From a virus: a stretch of 46,692 nt of DNA. Made by a program: the position numbers and the translations under genes. This document shows, one piece after another, positions 21,651-26,997 of this stretch. The notes under the pieces are model-generated. The model did not search any database and was not told the DNA's origin. It worked only from the letters and a program-made list of their open reading frames with translations. The stretch is from the IMG/VR virus record IMGVR_UViG_3300043539_000845, positions 1 through 46,692 of that record; one strand, given 5' to 3'. The first letter of the stretch is position 1. Every line of letters starts with the position of its first letter.

Positions 21651-21739
21651 CTAAAAGATAATGGTTCATGGTTTATGGTTGGTCTCATGGGGTCAATTAT
21701 CTTTTAGCTTATGATACGTGGGTTTCGATTATCTTTTAG
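21651..21739. repeat. Three copies of the CTAAAAGATAAT 12-mer
   Basis: Exact copies at 21651-21662 (plus), 21696-21707 (minus) and 21728-21739 (minus). The last contains the stop codon of the terminase C-half. Nothing else is seen between the RNA candidate and that gene. Confidence 0.8.
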
Positions 21740-23139
21740 AATCCACTACTAATAAAGATAGGCAATGGCATCTGATCTTCTGTCAATTTCTCAGACATCT
21801 TATCATATATAGATGGATCCCAGTCAGATAATACAGTTGCCATTCTTATAATAAGAAGAACCGCAGAAATCAAGTCATCATGCTCACCTGATTTAGCACC
21901 AAATCCAACACCACGTGAGATAAATGTTTTTAACTCGGACATAAGAACTTTAGAGTTAATCGTCATCTTACCAGTTTCTAATAGGTTTTTAAACTGGCTA
22001 CACGCAGTGACTTTTGTTCTATGTGTAGTGTTAAACCCTTTACGGAACTTTCTGATATGACCTTTCTTAATCGGTTCTGACAGGAATAACCCATGAAAGT
22101 TCTCCTCACCAATACTCTCAATAACGATCAAGGCAGCTTCACCTAGTGTATTATTCTCCATACTATAGTACGCAGTTGGTGCAAATCCACCCTTTTCAAT
22201 ACCACGATCATGTATATACGACAATATATCTCTTAGATGTCTGATTTGTGTTTGCACCGGTGTAGTGTTATGTCGCCATTCACCAACCTGTTCCATACTT
22301 GGCATTTCAAATACTTGCATAGCTGCATAGTCACCACCAGTGCCCAAACTTGGATCTAATGATATCAAATAGGTTGAACGTGGGTCAATCTCTTTATACC
22401 ATCGTGTTTGTCCCATTGTGTAGATAGGGTCGATAGCGGTTAACTCCGATAATTTTGTTGCACTAATCAACGTTTCGTCGTTAATCAGGAACTCACATTC
22501 GAATTCACGACGAAATTTTTCTGAATGCATTTTGGCTCGTTCAGCTGTAGCCCAGGCATCATCACGATCTGGGTGTTCACGCCAATGTGCGAAGAAAGGA
22601 TAAAAGCCGTTTATCCCAACTTTTTGCTCAATTCCGTTCGCATCGAACTTCTTATTAGCAGCATGCCAAATCTCAGCAAATTGATCCTCGTCACTGTTTG
22701 GAGTTGATGTGATAATACATCTACCACCAGTAGACAACGTCGGTGATAACGCAGTCCAGAACTCACGTGCTTTCTCCGGTGGATTCACAAATGACAATTC
22801 GTCGCAGTTACTTGATTTTAAACGACTTTTTCCTACAAGGAAAACGTGATCGGCGTCGTGGACTTCAACTATATCGAAAACATCGGTTGTTTTATCAAAT
22901 TCGATTGATTCGATTTCAACTTGGCCATCTACTGTATCTAAAAGATAACCGACCTCAAGTTCACTTACTCTGGTTTTCGTACCATTGCTGATGAATTTAT
23001 GGGGTGCTGTTGCAGATACCGAATCACCATTGGTAAATGTTATTTTAAAGAGTTCTTTACCTGATGCTAACCGGACGCCATTGAAGTCACGCCAACCAAC
23101 AGGTGTTAATATTTCGTATTCATTGTTTCTAACAAGCAT
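21736..23139 (-). CDS. 17: Terminase large subunit, C-terminal half, fused behind a split-intein C-part
   Basis: 467 aa: residues 1-111 are intein, 112-467 are gp17. The extein begins with Cys+1 and CDELSFVNP, the second half of the Walker B motif (T4: YIDECAFIPN). The nuclease domain is complete: [27 protein letters not shown] and [11 protein letters not shown] hold the three acidic metal-binding residues. The gene has its own ribosome site (AAGGAA) and leader, so it is made as a separate protein and must be joined to the N-half by trans-splicing. Spliced gp17 would be about 530 aa; T4 gp17 is 610. Confidence 0.92.
22807..23139 (-). other. Split intein, C-terminal part (111 aa)
   Basis: Begins [16 protein letters not shown] and ends LKSSN before extein Cys. 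It contains block B (SATAPHKF, His present) and block F ([18 protein letters not shown]). Because the break lies soon after block A, this is an atypical split: short N-part, long C-part, as known for AceL-TerL-type terminase inteins. The residue before the terminal Asn is Ser instead of the usual His. Confidence 0.9.
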
Positions 23140-23165
23140 AATGTTCCTTACATATGTTTTATCTC

Positions 23166-23184
23166 TATTTACCTAAAAGATAAT
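23166..23184 (-). promoter_or_regulatory. Leader module 12-mer + TAAATA before terminase C-half
   Basis: Minus strand ATTATCTTTTAG followed at once by GTAAATAGAG, 27 nt from the ATG. The same composite (12-mer reverse complement, then GGTAAATA) precedes the terminase N-half at 27032-27051. TAAATA resembles the T4 late core. It gives both halves a matching control region. Confidence 0.5.
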
Positions 23185-23186
23185 AG

Positions 23187-23215
23187 TTGCATAACGTATA
23201 CATATATGATATAGT
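23187..23215 (+). promoter_or_regulatory. Probable promoter for the DUF1566 gene pair
   Basis: TTGCAT, 17-nt spacer, TATAGT; 34 nt before the ATG at 23249. A moderate match to sigma70. Confidence 0.4.
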
Positions 23216-23248
23216 TACCATACCAATAACTTACATTTTCATATCTGC

Positions 23249-25015: not shown

Positions 25016-25138
25016 GCGCACGCACATTTTGAACCTAAAAGATAATTGCCTTATAGCTGTTTCCATTCGCGCACATACATTTTAGCTTTTTACCAGATGC
25101 ACACGTACATTTTATATCTATTCGAACACATACATTTT
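25016..25138 (+). repeat. Four copies of a 15-mer, GCRCACRYACATTTT
   Basis: Starts at 25016, 25069, 25099 and 25124 (the last with GAAC in place of GCRC). Purine-pyrimidine alternation (CACRYAC) precedes an invariant ACATTTT. Spacing is irregular (53, 30, 25 nt). Possibly binding sites for a protein. Confidence 0.65.
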
Positions 25139-25165
25139 AAACTAAAAGATAATTCATTAATAACT

Positions 25166-25275
25166 CACATCAATAAGATCATTAATAACATCAGTAATAA
25201 ACATCATCTATAAGATCATCTATAATATCATTAATAATAACATCACATATAAAACATCAATAAGAACATCATAAC
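25166..25275 (+). repeat. AT-rich degenerate repeat array (ACATCA / AGATCAT units)
   Basis: About ten short units such as ACATCAATAAG, ATCATTAATA, ACATCATCTATAAG. Very low GC and no reading frame. It could melt easily or bind a protein. Confidence 0.6.
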
Positions 25276-25359
25276 TAAAAGATAATATACCTATTAAGAC
25301 AATCATCTTTTAGTATTCTATTAATGGATAGTTACGTCTTTTAGTTTCATATTATATGT

Positions 25360-25376
25360 GCGAGCGTCAGCGAGCC
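25360..25376 (+). repeat. GCGA...GAGCC hairpin family, copy 2 (minimal stem)
   Basis: GCGA, stem GC, loop GTCA, stem GC, GAGCC. It ends one nt before the stop codon of the terminase N-half. Confidence 0.55.
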
Positions 25377-25377
25377 A

Positions 25378-26997
25378 TTAAGCAATAACCCGAACCTCTG
25401 GGTCAAGACGTTGATATAACGCAGCGAGTGAAATCTCTTCTTCTACAAGAGTTTCCTTGTGTCTGATACGAACAGTAGTATCGCCATCTAAGCAATAAAT
25501 CAAAGAAAGCGACTTACCTCGACCTGTATTTTCAGTAGTGGTGGTTGCTTGGATACGAGCACCATTATCAAATTCGATTGTATTCCTGTTATATGAATAA
25601 ACACCAGCACGAATAAAGTCTGGTAAGTTCTCATAGGCATACCGATATCTGTTCATAATATCTTGTGCACCGGCATATAGATGAGCAGCAATCAGTACTT
25701 GGGCTTCGGGTACGAACATGGTATACCAAAGTAGATAGCCACTAGCACAAGTAGTGTTATGTGTTGGTACTAGAGTTTTACCCACTAAAAATAGATGTTT
25801 CTTATCTGCCACTTGTAAGCATCTAACTGGTACAGATTTTGATTTGGTGATATTTTTAATATACACCCGTTCATTATTTGGGAAGTGAGTACTTAATCGT
25901 GCTTTATCCAATTTTTCAGATAAGGTAAAGAGTTTCAGGTGTTTGGTTGAGAAAGTAAGGAAGTAATTGGTTTTAAACTTACAGACTTCGACTTTCAAAT
26001 GTGTTTTAACACCTAGTGTAGATAGGATAAATCGTACTTGTTCCGTTATCTTTTCGTTGTTATGTTTAAATGTACAGTATCCTGTATCGGTTACACTACC
26101 GCACACGTCCATAATACCTTGAATAAGTTGTAAACGAGTTTCAGAATCATTAATTAACATTTCATCTGGAAGGGTATTATCTTTGTTTAGAACAGGTTTT
26201 ACCATGAATTCTAGGTTATTAACAGAGTACATACCCAATCGTTTACTATGTCGTCTTAGGGTTAATTCTGACATGGTAAGACCATGGGATTTGAACATCT
26301 CGTTGTATCTGGTATATTCATGGGTGTAACATCTTAATTGGTTTACTTCAGGGTCATTACCCATCCAAAGACCAACCAGATATGGATCTAGTTTCATTGG
26401 TTTCTTTTCGAATTCAATGAGTTTGGTATGATCCATACTAATTTTAACATTAGCCGTTTTAAACTTGGTGAATCGTTTAATTAAGTATTCTGTATTTTCG
26501 GTGATCAAGTCTTCGTAGCCTGGATCATACCAAGTCCATAGGTGATGAGCATCGGCAATGATCTTTTCGCCATGTGAGAATTCGATAGTATAGCAAGTAC
26601 GATTTTTCATTGTTTCGGTAATGAAAGTTACTTCGGTTGGTGTACCTTTAGGTGTATAGATAGTATCACCGACTTGGATATCACCCATTCGTTTGAAACC
26701 GGTTGGTGTTAAAATTGGAGTTTCGTTGCAGATGGCTTTACCCATCTGACGTGGTAGCATAGCGATTGTATAAGTATTATCGTTATATGCTTGAATCAAT
26801 CTTTCTTGATATTCGTATGGTTCAAATGGGATAGCACCTCTAGTTGGATGCTGGATTTTCAAGAAGTTTTTGCAGAAGTAAAGTGGACCAGTAACTGGAT
26901 CCATACATTTCTCTAAGTGTTGTACTTGTTCAAGTGTGTATTGTTGTTTTTGATGTGCTCTTAAGATTTGAACGCCATCTAGGTTTCTGTTTGCCAT
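25378..26997 (-). CDS. 17: Terminase large subunit, N-terminal half, with a class 3 intein and a split-intein N-part
   Basis: 539 aa. Extein 1-87 ends in LPRQMGK; intein 88-414; extein 415-501 begins TTCASGYLLWY and ends LSLIY; residues 502-539 are the N-part of a split intein, then stop. Joining the first two parts gives RQMGK-TTCAS, matching T4 gp17 RQLGKTT. Joining across the split gives LSLIY-CDELSF (Walker B). The protein powers DNA packaging; without both splicing events the ATPase site is not formed. AAGGAA is 11 nt from the ATG. Confidence 0.93.
   Translation of the reverse strand: MANRNLDGVQILRAHQKQQYTLEQVQHLEKCMDPVTGPLYFCKNFLKIQHPTRGAIPFEPYEYQERLIQAYNDNTYTIAMLPRQMGKAICNETPILTPTGFKRMGDIQVGDTIYTPKGTPTEVTFITETMKNRTCYTIEFSHGEKIIADAHHLWTWYDPGYEDLITENTEYLIKRFTKFKTANVKISMDHTKLIEFEKKPMKLDPYLVGLWMGNDPEVNQLRCYTHEYTRYNEMFKSHGLTMSELTLRRHSKRLGMYSVNNLEFMVKPVLNKDNTLPDEMLINDSETRLQLIQGIMDVCGSVTDTGYCTFKHNNEKITEQVRFILSTLGVKTHLKVEVCKFKTNYFLTFSTKHLKLFTLSEKLDKARLSTHFPNNERVYIKNITKSKSVPVRCLQVADKKHLFLVGKTLVPTHNTTCASGYLLWYTMFVPEAQVLIAAHLYAGAQDIMNRYRYAYENLPDFIRAGVYSYNRNTIEFDNGARIQATTTTENTGRGKSLSLIYCLDGDTTVRIRHKETLVEEEISLAALYQRLDPEVRVIA
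25381..25494 (-). other. Split intein, N-terminal part (38 aa)
   Basis: C-terminal 38 residues of the terminase N-half, starting CLDGDTTVRI with Cys1 and a standard block A, and ending PEVRVIA before the stop. Only block A is present, so the break is much closer to the N-terminus than in DnaE- or gp41-type split inteins. Its partner is at 22807-23139. Confidence 0.9.
25756..26736 (-). other. Class 3 intein (327 aa) with decayed LAGLIDADG domain, in terminase Walker A
   Basis: Residues 88-414. Position 1 is Ala (AICNETPILT; Thr at position 6 as in block A). The class 3 triad is Trp154 (ADAHHLW), Cys393 (VRCLQV) and Thr412 (PTHN). Between the splicing blocks are LDPYLVGLWMGNDPE and RLQLIQGIMDVCGSV, the two LAGLIDADG helices with key acidic positions changed (GND for GDG; DVCGS for DTDGS), so the endonuclease is probably inactive. 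Confidence 0.87.

Follow-up and report, generated by a model that had tools for sequence, protein, structure and literature searches.

A split intein at the Walker B motif of a fractured phage large terminase gene

How can a phage build its packaging ATPase when the gene for the large terminase subunit (TerL) lies in two pieces? The question is raised by IMG/VR virus record IMGVR_UViG_3300043539_000845, a contig of 46,692 bases from an incomplete phage genome, which was analysed in full and is called the window here. An initial annotation had proposed that its terminase gene is interrupted at Walker B by an intein whose N-terminal part (IntN) and C-terminal part (IntC) are encoded separately. 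Having followed up this proposal, we regard it as very probable that terL is a fractured gene, that its two protein products carry the parts of a single class 1 split intein, and that they are joined by trans-splicing.

The two halves of TerL and their junctions

As initially annotated, TerL is encoded on the minus strand in two open reading frames (ORFs), an N-part of 539 amino acids (aa) at 25378-26997 and a C-part of 467 aa at 21736-23139. PHROGs large-terminase families match both (best E 1.2e-103 for the N-part and 6.8e-79 for the C-part), and Terminase_6C on the C-part is the sole Pfam match above cut-off for either frame. The N-part begins with an 87-aa extein that ends at the Walker A lysine (...LPRQMGK; 26737..26997). 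Next comes an intein missing from the initial annotation, a contiguous one of 327 aa inside Walker A (25756..26736), followed by a second 87-aa extein (TTCASG...LSLIY; 25495..25755), which abuts the first in intein-free relatives and comprises the remainder of Walker A through the Walker B strand. After LSLIY the frame runs into an IntN of 38 aa, CLDGDTTVRIRHKETLVEEEISLAALYQRLDPEVRVIA, which starts with Cys1 (25381..25494) and is closed by a stop codon at 25378-25380. The C-part opens with an IntC of 111 aa ending in SSN (22807..23139) and continues into CDELSFVNP, the start of a third extein of 356 aa (21739..22806; stop 21736-21738) that holds the Walker B acidic pair, the remaining ATPase and the nuclease domain. 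Cys+1 and the Asp-Glu pair (CDE) occupy 22798..22806. All these features lie on the minus strand, and 2238 nt separate the two halves (23140..25377). The annotated break of Walker B was thus confirmed; the statement that only block A lies in the N-part was right as to block A, but the short helix region after it is there as well. From this anatomy the ATPase site would be whole only once the halves are joined, and two separately encoded proteins would be required.

The exact junctions can be read from relatives in IMG/VR (103 found, 80 kept). Inteins are absent from 77 of the 80, in which the gene is continuous through LIYCDE and the LIY segment abuts the CDE segment with zero bases between them. 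The Walker A junction abuts in the same way in 72 of these 77, the contig beginning too late to tell in the other five. The remaining three relatives (L029, L001 and L002) carry both inteins, arranged as in the window, with IntC identities to it of 100%, 95% and 62%, respectively; L029 is possibly the same virus.

A family of class 1 inteins at the Walker B site

Eight IntCs used as search queries gave 95 related loci, of which the best 80 were kept. With distinctness defined by the IntC plus the first 60 extein residues, these reduce to 59 distinct loci, 54 of them at Walker B. Five of the 80 lie elsewhere (L172, L175, L192, L194 and L195). Among the 54 distinct Walker B members, 49 are split, three are contiguous (L132, L142 and L185, with a further frame break in the C-extein of L142) and two have their N-part outside the locus. 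The split members have an IntN of 34-50 aa and an IntC of 103-112 aa. In L185 and L187 the frame of the contiguous Walker B intein retains the MNQ start of the split form, which suggests a split intein that was re-fused. One pattern scan of bacterial and archaeal genomes produced 93 matches and zero relatives. Against 50,697 phage records the window C-part had 2423 matches, and among the 25 listed only Salicola phage SCTP-2 aligned from the first IntC residue.

The residues expected of a class 1 intein are conserved throughout this family. Cys1 is found in the window and in 51 of the 52 distinct members whose N-part lies in the locus, the last being unread by our script. The Thr and His of block B (Thr-x-x-His), the His of block F, and Cys+1 with CDE at positions +1 to +3 are each invariant (54/54). 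The last residue of IntC is Asn in 23 distinct members, including the window, and Gln in 31. The penultimate residue is His in all 31 Gln-ending members, whereas the Asn-ending branch has Lys in 21 and Ser in two; the Ser that had been taken as a mark of divergence is real, and L001 is the only other member with it. The profile search against known split inteins that had been suggested points in the same direction. A profile of five IntCs matched CatC, the consensus AceL/GOS intein, first in the PDB (E 1.1e-7), followed by DnaE (2.6e-4), a gp41-1-like intein (1.4e-3) and VidaL (0.022). The predicted model of the window IntC (mean pLDDT 71) places inteins at the top of the PDB list, with 19 chains at E <=0.001. 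Ratios of nonsynonymous to synonymous change (dN/dS) relative to the window indicate purifying selection, being 0 (L001) and 0.23 (L002) for IntN, 0.27 and 0.13 for IntC, and 0.06 and 0.07 for the C-extein. Together with the anatomy, the exact junctions, the compact arrangement in relatives and the promoter-like elements described below, these observations lead us to judge the element, from its sequence, to be a genuine class 1 intein, naturally split, that interrupts TerL at Walker B.

Several observations weigh against this assignment. As a single sequence the window IntC matches the PDB weakly (DnaE at E 0.018, CatC at 0.042), CatC is only at rank 27 by fold, and Pfam Intein_splicing gives 15.4 bits, below its cut-off of 35.8. 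The penultimate His is missing in the window, and SSN is found only there and in L001; this His is usual in class 1 inteins, not universal. Ten changes underlie the IntC dN/dS of 0.27 for the window and L001, and the synonymous divergence (dS) of IntC between the window and L002 is saturated (2.35). The genome is incomplete. Finally, it is from sequence that we infer trans-splicing, along with its order, the loss of a nuclease and any role in timing.

The initial annotation compared the element with AceL-TerL-type inteins. The split just after block A is indeed that of AceL-TerL and GOS-TerL, and the window (38 + 111 aa) shares with these and with the engineered consensus Cat-TerL a TerL host, a short IntN with a long IntC, and Cys+1. 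The site is another one. An AceL IntC query matched two contigs at 100%. In L103, which has the AceL site, the boundary of extein and intein is QTEFE|CVYGDT at the end of the N-part and VVSHN|CEFLGS in the C-part, with Walker B intact upstream. The AceL insertion (EFE|CEFLGS) thus lies about 100 residues later than LIY|CDE, and its equivalent is uninterrupted in the window (EFECEF; 22489..22506, minus strand) and in all nine members first compared, a test of shared site made for AceL only. The AceL IntC ends in SHN, the window in SSN and the wider branches in TKN or SHQ. By sequence the window intein is related to AceL-TerL as a different allele. AceL-TerL and GOS-TerL are given IntN/IntC lengths of 25/104 and 37/115 aa, respectively (PMC11766414, in part), so that the 38-aa IntN, within a family range of 34-50 aa, gives no support for divergence. 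The window is not a lone member, and rarity of the arrangement is not supported, given that 75 of the 80 kept IntC relatives (54 distinct) share the Walker B site. In one AceL-type TerL (L114) the IntN continues in frame into IntC sequence, with a frame break later. The literature searched yielded no account of a split intein at Walker B of TerL, and one may well exist in print.

The Walker A intein is of a different kind. Aligned by eye, it has Ala1 in place of Cys1 and the motifs HHLW, VRC and PTHN, and related inteins occupy the same Walker A place in L093 and L096. Its LAGLIDADG aspartates have given way to other residues in the window, whereas the aligned L096 copy retains them. The class 3 signature consists of the absence of Cys1 with Trp at N3:12, Cys at C2:4 and Thr at C1:5 (PMC7891396, in part), and the Walker A intein bears it in sequence, as do the naturally split AceL NrdHF intein and the cis-splicing class 3 inteins of the same source. 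Unlike AceL NrdHF, it is contiguous and lies in TerL.

The gap, its nuclease and the expression of the halves

In four relatives (L090, L091, L093 and L095) the gap between the TerL halves is compact, at 917-959 nt, and its single gene, for a nuclease, overlaps the start of IntC with its end; L096 has the same form, with an in-frame stop in the nuclease gene. A nuclease match of more than 300 nt is present in the gap of 38 of the 49 distinct split members, and the median gap is 906 nt. The order of N-part, nuclease and C-part is that of the fractured genes reported by Dassa et al. in 2009, in which the gene for a homing nuclease is said to separate the two parts of a split intein. Only three of the 49 gaps exceed 1500 nt: 2238 nt in the window and 1990 nt in L001, both without a nuclease, and 3577 nt in L002, where the nuclease is present together with most of the window's insert. 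The window departs from the fractured-gene pattern in that its gap has no nuclease gene and contains opposite-strand genes and an RNA. Since L002 has both nuclease and insert, and the window and L001 are the only large gaps without a nuclease, we read the window as a derived form, in which other sequence would have come into the gap first and the nuclease would have been lost later, with L002 resembling the preceding stage. A nuclease remnant was considered for the window gap and is not claimed, because the sole match covers 11 residues on the IntC start itself.

The insert is partly common to the window, L001 and L002. On the plus strand of the window, opposite to terL, it comprises an ORF with an Lcl_C domain (23249..23866; Pfam E 6.5e-12), a second Lcl_C-like ORF (23863..24141; E 8.6e-6, under the Pfam cut-off) and a Polynucleobacter-1 RNA (RF01718; 24493..24642; 75.1 bits against a cut-off of 37). 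This RNA also lies between the terminase halves in L001, L002 and L029, and none was found in nine loci chosen from the 77 intein-free relatives. Directly downstream of the TerL C-part is a TnpB/OrfB_IS605 gene (20193-21464, minus strand), and one follows the C-part in L001 too.

By sequence, nothing convincing in Pfam or the PDB identifies the gap nuclease, and its PHROGs matches are weak, one being to an HNH family at 3.2e-4. The model of the nuclease from the Asn-ending branch, of medium confidence (mean pLDDT 65), has helical modules followed by a C-terminal domain, for which a fold search gave AbaSI at rank 1 (E 2.0e-3) and Vsr at rank 5 (E 0.052). Because the TM-scores are at most 0.26 by query length and zero matches reach E <=0.001, 'Vsr-like' is a tentative label for this predicted domain. 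In its modelled fold it recalls the nucleases of phage group II introns, which combine repeat domains with an EDxHD/Vsr-like domain (PMC12350094, in part); unlike them it sits in a split intein, and the likeness is by fold model only. A 352-aa ORF outside the terminase locus (12504-13562, minus strand) is related to the gap nuclease domain (tblastn E 1.7e-11 with the L090 copy).

The nuclease also separates the two branches. The query nuclease matched over 918-999 nt in 15 members of the Asn-ending (TKN) branch and over only 414-552 nt, its first half, in 23 members of the Gln-ending (SHQ) branch. Judged by eye, the second half of the Gln-branch nuclease reads like an HNH domain; Pfam found nothing in three Gln-branch nucleases. 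L128 and L182 are nearly identical in DNA over the N-extein (99.7% of 600 nt), IntN (100%) and C-extein (97.8%), as against 68.5% in the gap and 53.1% in IntC, and in BLAST their first long match ends inside the nuclease gene and the next begins at the first base of the C-extein. From this contrast the catalytic domain of the nuclease and IntC appear to have been swapped as one block while IntN was kept. The same contrast holds for L001 and L002 (IntC 63%, C-extein 98%). Between the window and L001, dS is 0.07 in IntC and 0.14 in the Walker A intein, against 0.92 in the C-extein, as expected had the intein regions been transferred recently.

The arrangement of the gap bears on how the halves are expressed. 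TAAATA, which we take to be the core of T4-type late promoters, stands 40 nt before the ATG of the N-part (27032..27037, minus strand) and 32 nt before that of the C-part (23166..23171, minus strand). Among 41 genes of our own selection from the ORFs of the window, 14 have this element within 60 nt upstream, compared with a mean of 0.8 and a maximum of five for random positions (1000 trials). Against its use as a promoter, the reverse complement is also found upstream of six of the 41. Because each half has its own element, the two are probably transcribed separately and at the same stage. In L002 the element precedes the N-part and the nuclease and is lacking before the C-part; it is lacking there also in L090, L091, L093 and L095, as expected of an operon, and L096 has one inside the nuclease gene. 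An 11-mer, TTATCTTTTAG, precedes both halves and has 32 matches in the window at up to one mismatch, against 1.97 expected. It was rejected as the promoter, since the 24 exact copies are found on either strand, within genes and across stop codons, and TAAATA fits gene starts better. It is frequent in the terminase gap, and several copies span stop codons.

Mechanism, alternatives and meaning

According to the reading that we favour, a large T4-type phage encodes its large terminase as a fractured gene, with a split intein interrupting Walker B between the hydrophobic strand (LIY) and the acidic pair (CDE). The 38-aa IntN would bind the 111-aa IntC to form the Hint fold, the N-extein would be taken over by Cys1 and then by Cys+1, and Asn111 would cyclise, giving a single TerL chain that reads LIYCDE. 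The N-part would also have to be freed of the class 3 intein in Walker A by cis-splicing, and each half by itself could therefore not be an ATPase. The origin would be a compact homing cassette of IntN, nuclease and IntC. In the window a 2.2-kb stretch of other DNA, with opposite-strand genes in it, would stand where the nuclease gene was, so that the C-part would rely on a late promoter of its own.

It is improbable, in our view, that the split terL is instead a decaying pseudogene with an intein that no longer splices, another terminase doing the packaging. Such decay might be read from the missing nuclease gene, from the fact that the three gaps above 1500 nt among the 49 split members all belong to the window's lineage, from the absent penultimate His and from the IntC dN/dS of 0.27 between the window and L001, and an incomplete genome makes another terL conceivable. 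Every frame is open, however, the C-extein dN/dS is 0.06-0.07, the catalytic residues are retained and a promoter-like element is kept at each half; moreover, all 23 Asn-ending members have Lys or Ser as the penultimate residue. For seven split loci the underlying records were searched: the N-part query found one gene each, and the C-part query found one gene each or, in two records, two pieces of a three-piece TerL, one of these records giving two weak extra matches to IntC-like stretches. No second TerL copy was seen in the seven records, which include the 53-kb record of L029 with its one terL; since all seven are fragments, this is suggestive only.

Two other explanations concern the break itself. 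That a sequencing or assembly error divided a continuous terL or a contiguous intein, the possibility that the initial annotation had held against itself, is scarcely credible: although this is a metagenome contig and three of the 54 distinct relatives have a contiguous form at this site, 49 of the 54 are split and the same break and arrangement recur on three further contigs, of which L001 and L002 are diverged. Joining of the halves as RNA, by a group I, group II or trans-splicing intron with the intein-like parts incidental, is very unlikely too. It would have precedent in terL as a known intron target, broken by group I introns in Jug phages and RNA-spliced in ICP1 (PMC12363816, PMC10448857, in part), and the gap does contain a structured RNA. 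That RNA belongs to no intron family, however; an Rfam search of the window at the gathering threshold found no intron, the intervening genes are on the opposite strand, and the intein residues of IntN and IntC are invariant and under selection.

Trans-splicing of the fractured terL would not be confined to two pieces. A new IntN terminates the C-part at the AceL-equivalent site in 12 of the 54 distinct members, while in four others the contig ends before this site or beyond it. Of the 12, 11 have a third gene after it, which begins with an IntC and extends into the nuclease domain. Three-polypeptide terminases of this kind, split at Walker B and the AceL-equivalent site, are seen in L119, L121, L129, L136, L138, L140, L152, L166, L168, L173, L177 and L181. 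The isolate SCTP-2 (MF360958; L098, L101 and L102) has TerL broken at Walker A and Walker B into three genes scattered across more than 200 kb, gp534 (429356-429748), gp267 (256428-257321) and gp224 (215993-218077), all annotated as terminase large subunit. Its gp224 appears to hold one more contiguous intein, and the adjacent gp225 resembles the gap nuclease in its first part. The jumbo phages MIJ3 have a split PolB intein with an HNH nuclease gene between its parts, to which a mini-intein of SCTP-2 is related; these are likewise inteins in related large phages, in PolB rather than TerL, and the portions of that source consulted make no mention of the SCTP-2 TerL split (PMC6892783).

A broader proposal, which we find possible and rate below an even chance, is that IntC and the nuclease catalytic domain form an exchangeable cassette that replaces another such block while IntN is kept. 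It would then be half an intein that homes, the resident IntN having to splice with IntCs of either branch, and one or two trans-splicing reactions would join two or three polypeptides into TerL, with assembly of the motor thus dependent on several late genes.

The locus reveals a second, well-populated TerL site for split inteins with a short IntN, and its 49 distinct natural split pairs, with IntN of 34-50 aa, are a stock useful for protein semisynthesis. As both ATP-binding motifs of the window are broken by inteins, the motor would need two splicing events before it could work. The family also offers a natural series, from contiguous inteins through split forms with the nuclease, with the nuclease missing and with unrelated genes between the halves, to terminases in three pieces. 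With this series one can test how a gene comes to fracture, and whether the fracture is only tolerated by phages or used by them.

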